From contig USKV01000009.1 in the NCBI GenBank assembly GCA_900555355.1, forward strand, positions 1-15,527: a stretch of DNA of 15,527 bases, written 5' to 3'. Below, in pieces: positions 7,573-15,456 of the stretch; the first letter of the stretch is position 1, and each line of letters begins with the position of its first letter. Under the pieces are notes generated by a model that saw nothing but the letters and a program-made list of their open reading frames with translations, ran no database searches and was not told the origin of the DNA. The DNA comes from an uncultured Collinsella sp. GTDB lineage: Bacteria; Actinomycetota; Coriobacteriia; Coriobacteriales; Coriobacteriaceae. Position numbers and translations under genes: made by a program.

Positions 7573-7786
7573 CGCCTCATCCTCGCTAATTCTTTAAGAA
7601 GCCTTTACGTTTCCGTGTAATTCCCGTCCATTATCGCGCAGGTCGCCACTACATTGAGCCACACCGCCGCACATGCGCGTTAATATGGCTGGTTGTTGTG
7701 CGCAGCCCGCAAATGCAGCGCATATTTAGGTAACAATCGGGTAAACCCCCGCTTTCGTAGGTTTTAAGTTTGTGAGGAGTCTCAGC
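7573..7786. other. Divergent intergenic region; no clear promoter identified
   Basis: These 214 bases separate the starts of the nitroreductase (minus) and the LTA-synthase-like gene (plus), so both promoters should lie here. I see GATAAT on the minus strand near 7632 and TAATAT on the plus strand near 7681, but neither has a convincing -35 at proper spacing. GAGGAG before 7787 is the plus-strand ribosome-binding site. There is no tRNA, riboswitch or repeat that I recognise. Confidence 0.35.
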
Positions 7787-10087
7787 ATGTTCGCTGCCGC
7801 CATCTCGCTCGTCGGTCTTGCGGCGACCGTCTACCTTGTTTTGCGCGAGGCCAAGACCATTCGCGCTCAGTCGGGCACCGTTGCCAAAAGCGCTCTTGGG
7901 TGGAGCGTCGCCTTCGGCCTGTTCCAGCTCTTTTTGACCGTCTGGGGCGCTATTGGCCTCGTCGCGCAAAACGAGCCGCTCGCCTTTGTGATGCTCATCC
8001 TGACCAATGCCATCCTCACCGGCTGCGCTTGGGCCAGTATCGCCCGCGACCGCATCGCCCCGCGCGTCTTTGCGTTCGCCGGGCCCGACGCCCCCGCCCC
8101 CACCGGCAAGCTCGCCCGCCTGCGCGGCGCCTTTGTGGGCAAACCGCTCGTCGCCGCCGTCCTGTGCCTGCTGCTCGCCGGCGTCTTTGCGCTGCTGGGC
8201 ATGGAGGTCTCGTCCAACCACGACTTTACCTGGGTCTACCCCCTGTGCATCCTGCTCGAGTGGGCCATCATCACCACGCTCATGGTCGGCCTGTTCTTCC
8301 TGTTCCAGCGCCACGGCGCAGCTCCCGCGGTCCTGGCCTTTGCCCTCTTTGTCCTGGGCATTGCCGAGTTCTTCGTCATCACGTTTAAATCCATGCCCAT
8401 CCAGCCGGGCGACCTTTCGGCCATCTCCACCGCCGCCGCGGTCGCCGGCACCGGCTACACCTTCTCCATCTCGCTGTTCTGCGTGCTGTCCATGGGCTTT
8501 ACCGCCATCGCTATGCTGCTGTGCGAGTACGCCGGCCTGGTGGCACCGCACCGTCAGAAGGGCGCCGCCAACGCCAAGCGCATGCTGCTCACCAATCTGC
8601 TCGTCGCCGTGCTGTGCCTGGGCGGCGTGACCGCGCACGTCACGCTCATCGACTACTACAACACCCTCGGCATCACCGTCTATACCTGGCGCCCGCTCGA
8701 GAGCTACTGGCGCGAGGGCTACCTGCCCGCCTTTATTAGTGCAGCGCAGTCCATCAAGCCGCCCAAACCCGCCGACTACTCCGTCGACGATGCCAAGGCC
8801 ACGCTCAAAAAGTACGCCAAGGCCTACGACAAGTCCGACGCAGCCAAGAGTGACGAGCGCACCGCCGCAAAGGAGCAGTTCGACAGCGAGAAGCCCACGG
8901 TCATCGCCATCATGAACGAGACCTTCTCGGATCTGTCGATCTATCAGAACATGCGCGCCGGCTACGAGGGCCCGCAGTACTTTAAGAGCCTGTCCAACTG
9001 CCTCAGCCGCGGCAAGCTCTACGTGAGCGCCTACGGCGGCGGCACCGCCAATACCGAGTTTGAGTTTATGACCGGCAACTCCATGGCCAACCTGGGCTCG
9101 GGCGTGTACCCCTACACCATCTACAACATGGAAACGACCGGGAACCTGGCAGAGCAGTTCAAGTCGCTCGGCTATTCCACCACGGCCATGCACCCCAACC
9201 ACGCCACCAACTGGAACCGCGAGAACGTCTACAAGGATTTTGGCTTTGACCGGTTCCTGTCCATCAACGATTTCCAGGGAGCCGACACCTTGCGCGGCAT
9301 GGTGACCGACCAGGCTACCTACGACAAGATTCTTGAGCTGCTCGATCAGAACGCCGATCCGCAGTTTATCTTCGACGTGACCATGCAGAACCACTCGGGC
9401 TACGATACGGGTCTGCTGCCGGTCGATAAGCAGATGCACCTGAATATCGACACGACCGATCTGGACGCCAAGACCGTCGAGGACGGCACGCTCTCCGATG
9501 TCGACGAGTATGTCTCGTGCATCGAGCAGTCCGACCAGGCGCTTCGCTACTTCCTAAACGCCCTGAGCAAGCTCGACCGTAAGGTAGTCGTGGTGTTCTG
9601 GGGCGACCACCAGCCGTTCTTCCCGTCCAAGTTCAACGATAAGTGGTTTACCGGCGAGGACGACGCCACGCATCAGGAGCGTCTGTGGCAGACCGACTAC
9701 ATCATCTGGGCCAACTACGACGTTGCCGGCTGCGACCAGACGAGCGAGGTCGACGACCTGTCCACCAACTACCTGTCCACGCAACTCATGCAGCTGATCG
9801 GCGCACCCCTCTCCGACTACCAGAAGGCGCACATGACGCTGCGCGAGTCGCTGCCCGCCATCAACTCCGTGGGCTACGAGGACGCCAGCCTGCGTTGGGC
9901 ACTCTCCTCCAACGTCACCGGCGACGACGCCGCAGCAGCAGCCGCCACCAAGGCGCGCGAGGATTACGCCAAGATGCAGTACTACGAGATGTTCCGCGAC
10001 GGCAAGAACGTGTACACCGAGCACTTCCAGACCGAGGCCAACGAGACCGACCCCAACCTGGCGCCGGGTACGACCAAGATCAAGTAG
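7787..10087 (+). CDS. LTA synthase family phosphoglycerol transferase (membrane sulfatase-fold enzyme)
   Basis: A membrane enzyme of the LtaS/OpgB family, 766 residues, which transfers glycerol phosphate from phosphatidylglycerol to an envelope glycopolymer. About eight hydrophobic segments occupy residues 1-290; MPIQPGDL (about 203-210) is the short extracytoplasmic motif seen in this family. The sulfatase-fold catalytic domain spans about 368-700. The expected metal and nucleophile residues are present: E378 in MNETF, nucleophile T420 in GGGTANTEFEF, and D607-H608 in FWGDHQPF, with TMQNHSGY between. The spacings (42 and 187) are close to those of S. aureus LtaS (E255, T300, D475-H476). The ATG at 7787 has GGAG seven bases upstream; a GTG at 7772 is in frame but overlaps that site. 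It stands alone and is followed by a terminator-like hairpin. Whether the product is lipoteichoic acid or a decoration on another polymer is open. Confidence 0.88.
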   Translation: MFAAAISLVGLAATVYLVLREAKTIRAQSGTVAKSALGWSVAFGLFQLFLTVWGAIGLVAQNEPLAFVMLILTNAILTGCAWASIARDRIAPRVFAFAGPDAPAPTGKLARLRGAFVGKPLVAAVLCLLLAGVFALLGMEVSSNHDFTWVYPLCILLEWAIITTLMVGLFFLFQRHGAAPAVLAFALFVLGIAEFFVITFKSMPIQPGDLSAISTAAAVAGTGYTFSISLFCVLSMGFTAIAMLLCEYAGLVAPHRQKGAANAKRMLLTNLLVAVLCLGGVTAHVTLIDYYNTLGITVYTWRPLESYWREGYLPAFISAAQSIKPPKPADYSVDDAKATLKKYAKAYDKSDAAKSDERTAAKEQFDSEKPTVIAIMNETFSDLSIYQNMRAGYEGPQYFKSLSNCLSRGKLYVSAYGGGTANTEFEFMTGNSMANLGSGVYPYTIYNMETTGNLAEQFKSLGYSTTAMHPNHATNWNRENVYKDFGFDRFLSINDFQGADTLRGMVTDQATYDKILELLDQNADPQFIFDVTMQNHSGYDTGLLPVDKQMHLNIDTTDLDAKTVEDGTLSDVDEYVSCIEQSDQALRYFLNALSKLDRKVVVVFWGDHQPFFPSKFNDKWFTGEDDATHQERLWQTDYIIWANYDVAGCDQTSEVDDLSTNYLSTQLMQLIGAPLSDYQKAHMTLRESLPAINSVGYEDASLRWALSSNVTGDDAAAAAATKAREDYAKMQYYEMFRDGKNVYTEHFQTEANETDPNLAPGTTKIK

Positions 10088-10114: not shown

Positions 10115-10244
10115 CGTCTGTCCGGGCGGAGGCATATAAGGTTCCCTGCTCGGACAGTCCTGCGCAAGACGAAGGCCACATTAAGTGGCCTTCTTTGCGT
10201 GCAGAACTCGCGATGAACCTTATATGCCTCCGCCCGGACAGACG
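10115..10244. repeat. 130-bp element with perfect 29-bp terminal inverted repeats (MITE-like)
   Basis: The arms at 10115-10143 and 10216-10244 (CGTCTGTCCGGGCGGAGGCA at the left end) are exact reverse complements over 29 bp. The 72-bp interior holds a GAAGGCCAC/GTGGCCTTC hairpin and a partial CGGACAG copy, so the whole can fold as a large branched palindrome. It starts 28 bases after the LTA-synthase-like stop. I see no target-site duplication, so it may be a structured terminator region rather than a mobile element. Confidence 0.6.
10171..10196 (+). terminator. Hairpin terminator after the LTA-synthase-like gene (copy 1)
   Basis: The 9-bp stem GAAGGCCAC (10171-10179) with GTGGCCTTC (10185-10193) has a 5-nt loop and is followed by TTT. 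It can extend through CGCAA/TTGCG on the outside. It lies 83 bases downstream of the plus-strand stop, inside the 130-bp inverted element. Confidence 0.6.
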
Positions 10245-10299: not shown

Positions 10300-10329
10300 G
10301 AAGGCCACGTTATGTGGCCTTCTTTGTTT
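10300..10329 (+). terminator. Second copy of the GAAGGCCAC hairpin
   Basis: The same 9-bp stem (10300-10308 with 10314-10322) with loop GTTAT is followed by TTTGTTT, a better T-run than in copy 1. It is preceded by CATATATAAG, resembling the CATATAAG upstream of copy 1, so the two are a direct duplication about 129 bp apart. It sits immediately before palindrome array A. Confidence 0.6.
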
Positions 10330-10331
10330 GC

Positions 10332-10684
10332 GGAAAGTGTGTCCCGTAATTCTTGTCTGGAATGGGATGCAGTTTCCGCTTGGGACCCGATTGGGAAAGT
10401 GTGTCCCACTATTCAGCTGGATTCCGGGATGTATTTTCCGGTTGAGGCTCGTTGGGAAAGTGCGTCCCACTTTGGGGGCTGATTCTGGGACGTGGTTTCC
10501 GGTTGGCTCTCATTGGGAAAGTTCATCCCATTTCTCGGCCTAATTATGGGACGCAGTTTCCCGTTGAGGACCCTTTGGGAAAGTGCGTCCCGGTCTGGAC
10601 GCTCAAACTGGGATGGATTTTCCGGATGAGGGCTTGACGGAAAATGTGTCCCGTTCCGGGCGCTAATTGTGGGATGCAGTTTCC
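10332..10684. repeat. Palindrome array A: six 46-bp dyads at 61-62 bp period
   Basis: Six dyads start at 10332, 10394, 10455, 10516, 10578 and 10639, and each is exactly 46 bp from GGAAA to TTTCC. The left arm consensus is GGAAANTGYRTCCCR (15 bp), then a 16-bp centre, then YGGGAYGCANTTTCC (15 bp), which is the reverse complement of the left arm. Linkers are 15 or 16 bp, of the type GGTTGAGGCTCATTG. GGAAA, TCCC, GGGA and TTTCC are unchanged in every unit. The array fills the gap between the LTA-synthase-like gene and the terminator of the surface-protein gene. I do not recognise the family. It is not coding and not a CRISPR. Confidence 0.9.
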
Positions 10685-10708: not shown

Positions 10709-10747
10709 AAAACCCGGGTGGCCTGTTTTTTGGCTACCCGGGTTTTT
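10709..10747 (-). terminator. Strong hairpin terminator of the surface-protein gene (possibly bidirectional)
   Basis: A 15-bp stem (AAAACCCGGGTGGCC at 10709-10723 with 10732-10746, one G-U) closes an 8-nt T-rich loop. On the minus strand the stem ends in TTTT; on the plus strand it ends in TTTTT. It is 27 bases beyond the surface-protein stop at 10774 and separates that gene from array A. Confidence 0.75.
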
Positions 10748-10773: not shown

Positions 10774-13437
10774 CTAGTGGGCCTTGCGGCGCTTGATCAG
10801 CATGATGAGGGCTATCACTACGAGCGTTGCTCCCGCTGCTGCTGCGGTGGCGACTAGGGCGAATGTTTGGTCGCCGGTGTTTGCGAGGTTCTTCGCTGTG
10901 GTCGTAGTCTTGACCTTGGTGTCGGTCTTAGCTCCGTTGTCGGACTTGGGCTTGTCCGGGTTCGTCGGGGTCTCAGGAGTCTCGGGGTCCTTTGAGCCTT
11001 CGGAATCGGTTGGGCCGGCGGTGTTTACCAGCGTATGGTCCAGGAACTTCTTGGCGCCCGCACTTGCCTGTGAGAACAGGCGGCGCGTGCGGATCGGGGT
11101 GGCGTTCACCGTTGTGGGCGCCGTCTCCTCGGCCTCGATATTCACGAGCGTCGTGCCGGTGTCAAGGCCCACGTCGGTGTATCCCACGTGGCAGTAATAC
11201 TGCGCACCGTCATCGTCTGCGGTCAGGTCAATCTCGAGCTTTGAGGCCGTTCCAGCCGCGAGGTTGCCATCGGCACCCACGAGCTTAAACTCTGTCTCGC
11301 CGCGGCCCTTGCGGTACCACATATAGGTCGGTGCCAGCCATGTTTCGCTATCGTCGGCACCGAGTTGCTTCACATGGCCAATCGCCGAGAGCGTCAGGTG
11401 GCTTCCCGCCGCGCGCTCAACCGAAGAGTCGTATCCAAGATCCGACCCCTCCGCAGCATTCGCCGCAGGTCCGCTCACGGTCATCGTCATGCCATCGGGC
11501 ATGGTCTTGACCGTGATGATTGCCGAGCGAATACCTGTTTCGGTCGTGGATCCATTCTTAACGGCGGCGATGGCGAATCGATACTCCGTATTGGGCTGCA
11601 GCCCATCCCACTTGAGCGAGGTCTGCGTGTTGTCGGCAATCTTCCAGCTATTGACGACCGCATCCGCCGCATTGCTCTGCAGCATGCCCACGCCGTAGCT
11701 AAAGCCACTCTTGTTTGCGAGTACATCGTCCCAGCTAAACGTAACGCTGGTCGAATCGACGGCGTTTGCCGTAAAGCCCGTCACGGCCGGCGCGTCGGGC
11801 ATCTCGACGTCCTTAACGTCATAGCCCACGATCCAGAACTGGTCGGTGTCCTTGGTGCCGAGTTTGTCGCCCGAGTCTGCCTCGAACTTGTCGACATCCA
11901 CCGCGTTGACGCCCAGACGCCACACAAAACCGTACTTGCCCTGCGCGGCCTCGGGCAGGTTGTCGACGGTGCCGCCGTATTCGGTCGATTCACTCGAGGA
12001 GTTACCCGTAGTAAAGCCGGCGTTGGCACCAAAGCACAGGCCGCCAAACAACTCGTGCTTTGCGAGCTTCGCGCCCATGACAACGCTGCCGTTCAGCGTC
12101 AAGCCGAGCTCGAGCTCCTGCTCCTTGCCCTCCTCGACTTCGATGGTCTGCTCAATGCTCGCCCCCGACTGCGCGGCGGCGCCGTTAAACCCATCGTGCG
12201 TGTAGGCGCGCGTTACGCCAGGCTTGCCCAGGCCAAAGGAATCCCCAACGGGAGTCTCGCCGTTGAGCGTCGTTTGATAGGTTCCGGGTTCTCCCGACCG
12301 GTTGGTCAAAAAGTAGCTGAGCGGCGTCATATTGTGCTGTTTGGCAATGCGGTCATAGGCCTCGACATTAACGACCGAGGTCTGCGCGCCGAGCGACACG
12401 GGCGCCGCCATCACGCCCTTGCCACCAGTTTCCTCATTTTCGATCTCATACTCGTAATAGACCATCGGAATCGTGTAGAGCACGGCCTTGTCACCCTCGC
12501 CGGCATGCGACTCATAGCTTACGCTTGCGCTGACCGTGCGCTCGCTCCGGTAGTCATAGCATCCCTCGGCGGCAAAATCGACTGAAGCATTCATCGCGAC
12601 CAGGGGCGGACCGGTCTGCACCTCGACGGCAACGCCCAACTCGGCGCCAATGGTATAGCCCTGGGATGTCCCCGTGCCCTTTTCCTCTCCGTATGACGTG
12701 CCGCCCAACACCAGATAGCCGTATGCCTGCTCCAGATCCTCAACATAGGGCGCATCCTGCAGCACGGCAAGCACGCGCGGGTTGGTATAGACCTTGTAGC
12801 GGTCCTTGTACGTGATCTTGACGCTGTCGTTGTCGACATCGGGCAGCGCGAGCGAGATAAATGTGCCGTAGGTAGTGCCGCGACGGTTGCTCTCGCTAAT
12901 CACCTGCTCCTCGCCGCGGCGCACCTTTCCGTTCTCGTCGAGCGAAAAATGCGAGGCGGTCATCCAATAGTAGTCATCGTTCTTGCGCAGGTCCTCGTCG
13001 CGGTGCTTGCCCACCACGGCGATAAAGCTCTCGTTATAGCGGTCCGAACCCGAGACGCTGCCCGCCTTGACGTCGCTGATCCACACCTGCTCTATACCCT
13101 TGTGGTCATGCTTGTTGCTGCTGTTGTATTGCTGACCGCTCATGCTCATGGTTCCGACCATGGACCCCAAGCCCTGAGCCCCGCTCTGTGCCGTGTTGCA
13201 GGCAAAGTCGCGGAACACATCGCCGCCCACGAGCACCTCGTCGACCGCCAGCTGCTCGGACAGGCCGTCAAGGTTGGCAGTGGCAAGGGCAATAGGCGCC
13301 AAGGTGCACGGATAGCGCTTATCCTGAGCGCTATCCTTCCATGCGCTGTTGGGCACATGCATCAGCCCATAGGAGGCGAGGAGCCCGTCTCTGTATTCCT
13401 TGCAATCGGAAAGCTTGAACTCGCCAGACTCCGAGTC
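10774..13437 (-). pseudogene. Surface protein, C-terminal fragment: FN3-like, Ig-like, LANTG sortase anchor (frame after the frameshift)
   Basis: This is the downstream 887 residues of a surface protein whose N-terminus lies in another frame (13436-14863). Residues 50-75 (ANLDGLSEQLAVDEV) and LPDVDND (198-204) look like further FG-GAP-type propeller pieces, so the frameshift cuts through one domain. Residues about 255-545 hold Gly/Ser/Thr-rich alternating strands that I cannot assign. A fibronectin type III-like domain follows at about 547-646 (LQPNTEYRFAIAAV). An Ig-like domain comes next at about 650-768 (YYCHVGYTDVG), then a Pro/Thr/Lys stalk (809-848), the sortase signal LANTG (851-855), a membrane segment (858-881) and KRRKAH. 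The anchor is intact but there is no signal peptide in this frame. The open frame extends upstream to 13782, only as an out-of-frame shadow. A functional protein needs the two frames joined; joined length is about 1362 residues. Confidence 0.8.
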
Positions 13438-13442
13438 AAAAA
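13436..13442 (-). other. Frameshift site: TTT TGA C in a five-T run
   Basis: On the minus strand the upstream frame reads TAT TTT TGA and stops. The sequence continues sensibly if one T of the five-T run (13442-13438) is skipped, giving Tyr-Phe-Asp-Ser-Glu. The local TTT TGA C resembles the +1 slip site of the RF2 gene (CTT TGA C), but I see no Shine-Dalgarno-like booster just before it. A single-base indel, real or from sequencing, is the simplest reading. Confidence 0.8.
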
Positions 13443-14863
13443 TACGCGTAGCGGTACAGCGCGCCGTACAGCCCCTTGCTGCCGTCAGAAGCGCCGTAAT
13501 CAAAAGCGCTGCGTTGCCAGTCATAGCCCGCAAGAATAAGGCCCGTGACGGTTTCACCCGTCTTCTTTCCTTCTTCATCGTAGGCGGCAAACGTGCCGAA
13601 CGTCGCATTCGCAGCGACCATGGTCTTGCCGTTCGCGGAGAGGGAGATTGCGCCCGCGTCGCCCAGAGCATCGACATGGACGAGCGCACCCTTGGATGCA
13701 TCCCACGAAAACAGCTCGCAATGCGTCGACTTATCAATATTCTTCTTGCCGTAGGGTGCCGAGACCACGATGGCGAGGTCATCGCAAAAATCGCGATCGA
13801 GGTCGCCGGCCGCTAGCGAAACGACAGGAGCTGACTGAAGCTGCGTCCAGGAGTCGTTCCCGCCCTTGTTGTGCGTGGTGTAGTCCGCGGCGTTACCGGC
13901 ATCGATCTTGACGACGCTTTGCTTCCAGTTGCCGCCCTCCAAGTCATACATGTCGACTACAGCCTTGCGCACGCCGTTCTCGTCGACATAGCAGCCCGCG
14001 TAGACAAAAAGCTCGTCGACGCCGTCGCCATCGACATCGCCCGCCTCGACATCAAAGACGGCGTCGTGCTCTTGCAGGTAACCGGCATCCAGGTACTTAA
14101 AACGGCCTTCGTACATCATATTAGTGTTGACCGTCACCGGCAGGTGTGTGTCGAGAGTGCGCGTACGCCCGTTGCTAAACGAGTAGAGGACCAGCTCAAC
14201 CTTTCCGGCGTATGACTTGCCGTCAATCGTCGTGGAGGAACTGTCGCCGTAGGCACGGAGCTCGGCAACGCGGCTCTTTTTGCCCGTGCTGGCGTCGCTG
14301 CAGAACTCAACACTCGTGGCGTGAATGCCCGAGAAACCGTTGTTGTCGTTGGCGAGTACTGTTGAGGACTCATTGTTGCTTAGGTACGACCAGGTGCCGC
14401 CACCGTAGTCGCTATGCTTGTAGAGATCGCTGTTCGTATCGAAGTTGTTGACGTTTTGCCAGAACTTTGCGGCGCCCCACACACTTCCATAGCCATCGGT
14501 GAGTTTGCTGCTGCCGCCAATGTCACCGCGCTCGACGTTCTCGAGCTTGTCGCGCAGAGTGTAGCGATTGCCATGGCTACCGTTAGCTGCCATATAGACC
14601 TCGCTGCGCGTGGCAAACGTCGTGGGGGTATCAGTGGAATAGGGGCCAACGGTATCGGCCGGAATGTCCTCGCTCGTGCCCAGACCCAGGGCTTGATAAT
14701 CCTGCTCGGTCATATCGGTGATTGCGGGCGCGTCTGCCGCCTGGGCAACCTGGGGCGTGGCCGTGAAGCAGGCGACGCTCGTGGCGATCAACGCAGCAAG
14801 CGCCGCCGTCCCAACAAGCGGGATTTTCGACAGCCTACGGATACGGGGGTGTGGAACGTACAT
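13436..14863 (-). pseudogene. Surface protein, N-terminal fragment: signal peptide and FG-GAP propeller repeats (frame before the frameshift)
   Basis: This is the first 475 residues of a large secreted protein. The ATG at 14863 has GCGAGG six bases upstream; an in-frame ATG at 14899 lacks a ribosome-binding site. The signal peptide is clear: PRIRRLSK, a hydrophobic core (about 15-35) and a probable cleavage at AQA-AD (about 42-43). Two Asp-rich FG-GAP/VCBS-like motifs are visible: GDVDGDGVDELFVYAG (275-290) and GDLDRDFCDDLAIVVSA (353-369). These bind Ca2+ in integrin-like propellers. The stop at 13436 falls inside a sensible domain, and the next frame carries the rest, including the anchor. 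Translated alone, this piece would be exported but not attached to the wall. Its role is probably adhesion or ligand binding, from domain content only. It is flanked by palindrome arrays on both sides. Confidence 0.8.
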
Positions 14864-14986
14864 GAGGGACCTCGCTTTATTCGAGTGGAGTGGACTCATT
14901 TTTGCAAATGATACATCCGATGCCCGATATCACGTGTCTCATTTTCGCCAACGGCGTGTCTCATTTTTGAGAATCCGAGATGCCGC
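14864..14986 (-). promoter_or_regulatory. Upstream region of the surface-protein gene with direct repeats
   Basis: Between the start codon and array B lie two exact 13-bp direct repeats (plus-strand CGTGTCTCATTTT at 14933-14945 and 14955-14967), 22 bp apart start to start, about two helical turns. A shorter CTCATTTT recurs at 14895-14902. The spacing suits a regulator binding one face of the DNA. Promoter boxes are uncertain: TTGGCG near 14945-14950 and TATCAT near 14909-14914 on the minus strand are the best I can see, and they do not pair at standard spacing. Confidence 0.45.
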
Positions 14987-15456
14987 GGAAATCTTATCCC
15001 AGCTCAAAGGCCATTTCTGGGATGTATTTTCCGTCGAGTGCCTCATCGGGAAACTGCATCCCATTTCAAGCGTCGATTCTGGGACGCATTTTCCCCTTAG
15101 ACCCTCAACCGGAAACCGCATCCCACTTTGAGCGCAAATTCCGGGATGCATTTTCCGCTTGAGCCTCATTGGGAAACGGCGTCCCACTTTGAGGGCTGAT
15201 TGTGGGATGCATTTTCCGGTTTTGCTCTCATTGGGAAAATGCATCCCGTTTCTTGACCGAATAATGGGACGCAATTTCCCGTTGGAGCGCCTTTGGGAAA
15301 GTGTGTCCCACTTCGACCGCCCAGAGTGGGATGCACTTTCCGCAAAGCACCTCAACGGGAAACTACGTCCCATTCCAAAGGCAAATTCCGGGACGCATTT
15401 TTCGAAAGCCTGCCCATCCGGAAAGCCCGTCCCACTTTGGACGCATCCGGGCACGG
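14987..15456. repeat. Palindrome array B: seven 46-bp dyads plus a half unit, 61-62 bp period
   Basis: Dyads start at 14987, 15049, 15111, 15172, 15234, 15296 and 15358, each 46 bp with 15-bp arms and a 16-bp centre. An eighth left half begins at 15420 and decays after about 35 bp. The period is 62 bp except for one 61-bp step. The arms follow the same consensus as array A. The last full unit has a G where the final C of TTTCC is expected. The orientation, judged from centres and linkers, is the same as array A. The array lies upstream of the surface-protein gene, just beyond its presumed promoter. Confidence 0.9.

Follow-up and report, generated by a model that had tools for sequence, protein, structure and literature searches.

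The described systems that come closest to the Collinsella repeats reported here are the BIMEs and REPINs with their RAYT (TnpA-REP) transposases. Short inverted doublets, an intergenic location, tandem clusters and the presence of a RAYT-type protein in the genome are common to both. In regard to four features that we tested, however, only one was found, namely intergenic inverted doublets of a short motif, many per genome. There is no imperfect-palindrome REP with a 5' GT[AG]G tag, as the 14-bp Collinsella motif is a loose dyad with a consensus that lacks GTAG and GTGG and forms no GTAG-tagged hairpin. No cognate RAYT gene flanked by the repeats was seen at nine loci of the RAYT-like protein described below (type A) and 11 other RAYT loci. 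Instead of many singlets and dispersed near-identical doublets, solitary motifs are few (3/60 and 6/48 in two genomes) and spacers are strongly diverged. As three of the four features are absent, we do not file the arrays as REPINs or BIMEs, from which they also differ by strict alternation and a fixed step of 31 bp. P. fluorescens SBW25 has tandem arrays in which two types of REP follow in order at constant distances of 112 and 72 bp (PMC3116915, PMC8266576), so that order as such is not new.

A second group of relatives are the TIRtrons or TIRYTs (RAYT group 1, TnpA-Y1 subclass 2.1). In the accessible portions of PMC3733652 and PMC6006769, TIRYTs are group-1 RAYTs with GGGGWSAS terminal repeats and helix-turn-helix (HTH) tails, and TIR dimers and clusters are known for them. 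Other Collinsella RAYT genes carry GGGGAC-core repeats that resemble these published GGGGWSAS TIRs. Type A shares the C-terminal HTH. However, published TIRYTs keep HUH and the catalytic tyrosine, whereas most type A copies do not, and the Collinsella arrays are rigidly spaced and lie away from the type A gene.

Two further systems share formal features with the arrays. Iteron and operator arrays of oligomerizing DNA-binding proteins consist of helically phased repeated sites, as do the Collinsella arrays, but the latter occupy about a dozen chromosomal loci per genome, alternate in orientation and have a binder that is only a candidate. CRISPR arrays combine a short conserved direct repeat with spacers of fixed length. 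The direct-repeat feature is absent from the Collinsella arrays because the motif alternates in orientation, and they also differ by spacers with a weak ancestral consensus and by their many loci. Searches of the open-access literature on palindromic, intergenic, extragenic or tandem repeats and REPINs in Collinsella listed no description of such arrays, and neither did the available part of a structured-RNA survey that names Collinsella (PMC8040213). Overall, we propose that the arrays would be phased binding sites, most likely descended from TIRYT repeats, with type A as the best candidate binder. Judged from sequence, we put the probability of this joint reading at roughly 0.45, slightly under even odds.

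Two alternating arrays and their distribution

The window, that is, the whole stretch of 15,527 nucleotides that we analyzed, had been described in a first-pass annotation as holding one array of six 46-bp palindromes with linkers of 15 or 16 bp. These units are exact on recount (linkers in order: 16, 15, 15, 16 and 15 bp), but the palindrome is not the basic unit. This is instead an asymmetric 14-bp motif, GGAAANNNNRTCCC, whose orientation alternates about every 31 bp. The 46-bp palindrome is a +/- pair of its copies and the linker side forms an inverted pair as well. Allowing one mismatch at most, we counted 27 copies of the motif in the window compared to 1.26 expected, and 0/200 shuffles reached 27. 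The copies are split between two arrays (Table 1), the second and longer of which had been overlooked; it holds six perfect 46-bp units. Start-to-start distances in both arrays are 32 bp for +/- neighbors and 30 or 29 bp for -/+ neighbors. These distances average ~31 bp per step, which by arithmetic, at about 10.5 bp per helical turn, is close to three turns. The shape of the motif, GGAAA-N4-RTCCC, reads as a loose dyad. In the 12 perfect units of the window the arms agree at 10–12 of 14 positions, nine of which are letters fixed by the pattern.

Table 1. Coordinates of the arrays, their elements and the neighboring genes in the window
Feature	Position	Strand	Remarks
LTA-synthase-like gene	7772..10087	+	Pfam Sulfatase, PF00884; array 1 on its 3' side
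Array 1	10332..10684	.	12 copies of GGAAANNNNRTCCC, strict +/- alternation, six inverted pairs; pattern count
Perfect 46-bp units of array 1	10332-10377, 10394-10439, 10455-10500, 10516-10561, 10578-10623, 10639-10684		
Example motif, + orientation	10332..10345	+	GGAAAGTGTGTCCC
Centre between + and - motif	10346..10363	.	18 bp; fixed length, free sequence; weak asymmetric consensus RGAATNNGCGCTCRGAAY across arrays
Example motif, - orientation	10364..10377	-	32 start-to-start after the preceding + copy
Linker, - motif to next + motif	10378..10393	.	16 bp
Terminator-like hairpins flanking array 1	~10300-10322 and ~10709-10746		read from sequence
Large fn3/FG-GAP surface protein gene, between the arrays	10774..14899	-	two overlapping frames, 10774-13782 and 13436-14899
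Array 2	14987..15433	.	15 copies of GGAAANNNNRTCCC, geometry as array 1, one copy with 1 mismatch

Array 1 lies between the LTA-synthase-like gene and the surface protein gene, and array 2 on the far side of the latter. The surface protein is a single 1374-aa frame in the genomes G001, G002 and G003 and is split in the window. One option in the first-pass annotation would place array 1 at the 3' end of the LTA-synthase-like transcript. The identity of this neighbor holds, but membership in its transcript is not required, as terminator-like hairpins stand on both sides of the array. Another element further upstream is a 30-bp inverted repeat (10115-10144/10215-10244) enclosing a terminator-like hairpin at ~10171-10193, to which the hairpin directly before array 1 is nearly identical. 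The arms of this repeat differ among genomes yet appear mutually complementary, and it looks like a separate repeat family.

The paired motif pattern, searched with a free gap of 12 to 22 bp, was found in 22 of 43 Collinsella genomes, with between 8 and 30 units per genome (perfect doublets: 30 in G001 and 22 in G002), and the same pattern read backwards had zero matches in the 43 genomes. At the family level, 22/65 genomes and 1/6 genera carried it. A profile search across the Coriobacteriia, as had been suggested for the palindromes, covered an evenly drawn sample of 396 genomes and found the pattern in 21 of them, in 1 of 153 genera. Named genomes yielded at least 120 matching stretches; of the 80 that were listed, 69 belong to Collinsella and the other 11 are lone pairs of 40–50 bp in unrelated organisms, as expected by chance. 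LTA-synthase DNA matched the window at 93–97% in the array-bearing genomes, compared to a top match of 69–77% in every one of the 21 array-less genomes, so that the array-bearing genomes form one clade, the Collinsella aerofaciens clade.

Perfect motifs number 60 in G002 and 48 in G003 (contigs of 2.4 and 2.3 Mb), and the reversed pattern used as a control occurs once and twice, respectively. Three of the 60 and six of the 48 are solitary, with no neighbor within 200 bp. The arrays occupy about a dozen chromosomal loci per genome and, by a rough ORF heuristic, are intergenic and lie mostly downstream of at least one gene. Perfect motifs are absent from ~0.2-1.05 Mb of the G002 contig and ~0.15-1.05 Mb of that of G003, a possible chromosomal bias. 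We also considered a mobile origin of the arrays and rejected it: viral contigs and phages gave no match, and the sole match in a plasmid collection is an 899,693-bp C. aerofaciens record (NZ_OY725717.1) that is equal in length to a contig of G008 and may be chromosomal.

Constraint on motif and spacing, and exchange of units

Spacing is nearly constant across the clade. Among unique neighboring perfect motifs at most 200 bp apart, the +/- distance is 32 bp in 184/209 pairs and the -/+ distance 29 or 30 bp in 151/158, which corresponds to a linker of 15 or 16 bp in the same 151 pairs. Neighbors in the same orientation lie 61–62 bp apart in 24/26 and 25/29 cases, where one imperfect motif is skipped. 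For a comparison of orthologous arrays, sequences were aligned on flank anchors 120 bp away, with the motif condition imposed on one partner only, and pairs differing by more than 20 bp in length were dropped, which left 107 unordered pairs from 17 locus families; the pairs are not independent of each other. Divergence in these pairs was 3.3% for fixed motif bases, 15.7% for the N bases of the motif, 13.6% for centres, 11.0% for linkers and 9.3% for flanks. Motif bases thus evolve about four times slower than spacers within orthologous pairs. The fixed bases were slower in 11/11 locus families with any spacer divergence; in six of the 17 families the spacers were undiverged, and in two of those six a few fixed bases had diverged. 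Indel events were about five-fold rarer inside arrays (26 in 22,568 bp) than in flanks (145 in 25,474 bp), and 25 of the 26 array indels were 1 bp long and one 16 bp, compared to 52/145 flank indels longer than 1 bp.

The slow motif bases, the rare array indels and a turnover in whole units point to selection on motif and spacing. The first-pass annotation had suggested selection on geometry, and the near-constant spacing, the freely diverging spacers and the depletion of small indels agree with this. Among the three origins that it had proposed, a row of sites for a DNA-binding protein fits best, with the sites themselves standing as predictions. The 18-bp centres, each read in whichever direction fits better, show a weak asymmetric consensus, and this choice of direction inflates it. 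We read the consensus as ancestry rather than present constraint because centres evolve no slower than flanks.

The main rival of the binding-array reading is a BIME/TIR-like repeat family that is selfish or a relic and serves no host function. Its units would have spread long ago and would now be copied, lost and exchanged between arrays as wholes by recombination at the shared motif, with the spacing kept by default. The restriction to one clade and the intergenic position mostly downstream of genes would agree with such a history. The ordered-pair version of the comparison excluded 296 cases on length and 212 because the sequences were identical. Among the former, at least 125 show a length difference of about one to four whole units (59–63, 122–125, 184–186 or 246–247 bp). 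Whole units therefore come and go, and part of the stability in spacing could stem from unit-wise copying. In two locus families, spacers differ by 27–45% and flanks by 11–13%, so that units appear to have been exchanged with the geometry kept; array indels are absent from one of these families, and 10 of the 26 fall in the other. At the LTA-synthase locus, units are lost cleanly, with the junctions within motifs. A family kept by default is, however, at odds with the four-fold slower evolution of motif bases in orthologous pairs and with the five-fold depletion of small indels, given that spacer substitutions are at least as frequent as those in flanks. Solitary motifs are also few in G002 and G003 compared to a dispersed repeat family of the array-less relative G042, in which 27/92 copies are solo. 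We consider a functionless relic rather unlikely, and that the arrays are selected, phased protein sites appears probable from these patterns.

A further explanation treats the arrays as recombination seams: the motif would be used by RecA or a (site-specific) recombinase, and gene cassettes would be exchanged at the arrays. At the LTA-synthase locus, 17/22 genomes of the clade carry two or more motifs in a chain (2 to 12), and 8/8 outgroup loci examined carry none. Three different gene contents follow the common left flank, and in G019 and G003 a single hybrid motif remains, which seems to connect the left flank of array 1 with the right flank of array 2 (four of 22 loci were left out of this junction comparison, and G013 runs off its contig). 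The locus is thus an apparent cassette-exchange site in sequence comparisons. By ORF reading, the gene after the array is the surface protein described above, another LPXTG-like gene or a flavodoxin-like gene. In G001 (L033 5749-8853), three arrays bound accessory genes, one for an ATPase_2/DUF234 protein and one for a 332-aa protein without a Pfam match; in G002, the corresponding 12 kb contain a single array and no adjoining 332-aa gene.

Most array loci nevertheless keep both flanks across genomes, with more than one partner in 10/67 flank families. Alternating sites should also invert often, yet 780/786 homologous centres in syntenic arrays keep their orientation. An initial count of 117/1454 for active unit inversion was attributed to inverted repeats in the flanks, and when both flanks were required, 3/786 remained, all at one locus; active inversion was therefore rejected as a candidate. 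The junctions at the LTA-synthase locus demonstrate plasticity, but no recombinase is shown by them, and deletion through short homology accounts for them as well. The recombination zone proposed in the first-pass annotation thus retains weak backing from exchange junctions in motifs at a single locus, while inversions are nearly absent, and we regard arrays as recombination seams as improbable.

A RAYT-like protein of the same clade

A Y1 transposase search of the genus led to type A, a RAYT-like protein of ~270 aa. It has a Y1_Tnp/HUH core (Pfam Y1_Tnp PF01797, 34.8 bits at a cut-off of 23), matches NCBIfam REP_Tyr_transpos (NF047646) with 37.1 bits, under the cut-off of 80, and has a C-terminal HTH with matches that are likewise under their cut-offs. 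At ≥77% identity, type A is present in 21/22 array-bearing and 0/21 array-less genomes; in the latter the best full-length RAYTs reach 41%, and a 47-residue fragment in G036 reaches 53%. In G031, the sole array-bearing genome without type A, a search with 741 bp that adjoin the gene elsewhere likewise had no match. Type A is the only full-length RAYT-like match in G001, G008, G009, G019, G032 and G035, IS200-type Y1 transposases aside. An AlphaFold model built on a 39-sequence alignment (mean pLDDT 81.9) had as its best PDB match TnpA-REP bound to the REP hairpin (4er8, E 7e-6), followed by IS200/IS605 transposases, and a PDB search by sequence yielded nothing useful.

According to the available portion of PMC6006769, class-2 proteins carry their catalytic tyrosine in a Y---NP motif. 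Among 20 of the 21 type A sequences (G033 was left out), this tyrosine is replaced by serine in 16 and the second His of HUH is lost in 10. HUH and the tyrosine are both kept in G003, G004, G013 and G035. The serine-bearing copies have no stops and a mean dN/dS of 0.30 (117/120 pairs; three with near-zero synonymous divergence were dropped), which indicates that tyrosine-less type A stays under purifying selection at the sequence level. Still, the four intact copies have a dN/dS of 0.125 (six pairs), and the looser value of the others would also fit partial decay. Database homologues number 1100; in the 120 of them that were listed, with a bias towards the intact query, the tyrosine site is Y (58), S (45), F (13), N (2) or unread (2).

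Several observations bear on an origin of the arrays from repeats of a RAYT. At 9/11 of the other RAYT loci in the genus, (G)GGAC-core repeats lie near the gene; they are absent at two. The array-less relative G042 has 92 dispersed copies of GGGGACGTGYTCC (control 0); apart from the solo copies, they form mostly inverted doublets of 36–124 bp or tandems of ~36 bp. In four stretches that we viewed, the copies lie inside hairpins of the ATGGGTTG...CAACCCAT type. Read the other way, the array motif is GGGAYNNNNTTTCC, similar in shape to GGGGACGTGYTCC; it resembles GGGGACGTGTTCC and other GGGAC cores without matching them, a likeness by shape only. TIRYT ancestry of the arrays is thus plausible on sequence grounds.

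We propose that each 14-bp motif (GGAAA-N4-RTCCC) could be one site for a sequence-specific DNA-binding protein. Sites that alternate about every 31 bp would point to roughly the same side of the DNA, so that adjacent proteins could touch each other. The array family would most likely descend from the terminal-repeat family of a group-1 RAYT (TIRYT) transposase, and the best candidate binder would be the conserved type A of the clade with its HUH-fold core and C-terminal HTH. Having lost transposase residues in most lineages seen, type A may today have an architectural or boundary role in intergenic DNA; the arrays are perhaps still used by a tamed transposase. The assignment of type A as binder is tentative and in our estimate falls short of even odds. 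A domesticated RAYT/TIRYT in the C. aerofaciens clade, with the tyrosine mostly lost, the DNA-binding parts kept and the former repeats turned into architectural or boundary arrays at about a dozen loci, is a possibility that we hold with more reserve still.

Speaking against the type A link, ~2-3 kb on each side of nine of the 21 type A loci and of the 11 other RAYT loci contained isolated motifs with one mismatch and no array, whereas RAYTs normally adjoin their repeats; RAYT genes flanked by arrays were accordingly rejected (0/20 loci). The arrays could instead be the sites of a different, clade-specific DNA-binding or nucleoid protein unrelated to RAYTs. The evidence from geometry and constraint applies equally to such a protein, and because type A and the arrays mark the same tight clade, their co-occurrence counts as one evolutionary event in the phylogeny. 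The shape of the motif and a catalytically degenerate, HTH-bearing RAYT of matching distribution nevertheless favor type A, and we give an unrelated binder a small probability.

Folding of the arrays and wider meaning

The two other origins proposed in the first-pass annotation, a chain of RNA hairpins at the gene 3' end and a cruciform-prone zone, presuppose pairing between arms. Folded as RNA, the array is far more stable than its shuffles (z -11.5; single units z -6.0 to -1.3), because inverted motifs pair trivially. Compensatory changes between arms, as had been suggested as a check, were absent: pairing of variable arm bases was 0.679 compared to 0.670 after shuffling in 298 unique centres (159/1000 shuffles as high) and 0.678 compared to 0.669 in 241 linkers (158/1000). 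The result was the same in 184 unique perfect units, with no pairing excess at motif positions 6–10 (z -1.3 to 1.5). Despite the strong folding, a chain of RNA hairpins or of DNA cruciforms at the 3' ends of genes was rejected as very improbable, since covariation is missing across centre, linker and motif, the linker is almost as fixed in length as the unit, Rfam has no match to the array at gathering thresholds and array 1 itself is flanked by two terminator-like hairpins.

The role of RAYTs in their hosts and the reason for the long persistence of REP-like repeats are open questions in the field. The C. aerofaciens clade offers a natural case in which the chemistry of transposition has apparently been lost in most lineages while the protein, the motif and its exact spacing are conserved, and which thereby separates selfish mobility from host function. 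For a common gut commensal, it also provides one candidate protein together with a short, well-defined target in the DNA. In addition, the arrays serve as a warning that a repeat family may be selected for its geometry rather than its sequence, and that similarity searches miss such families.
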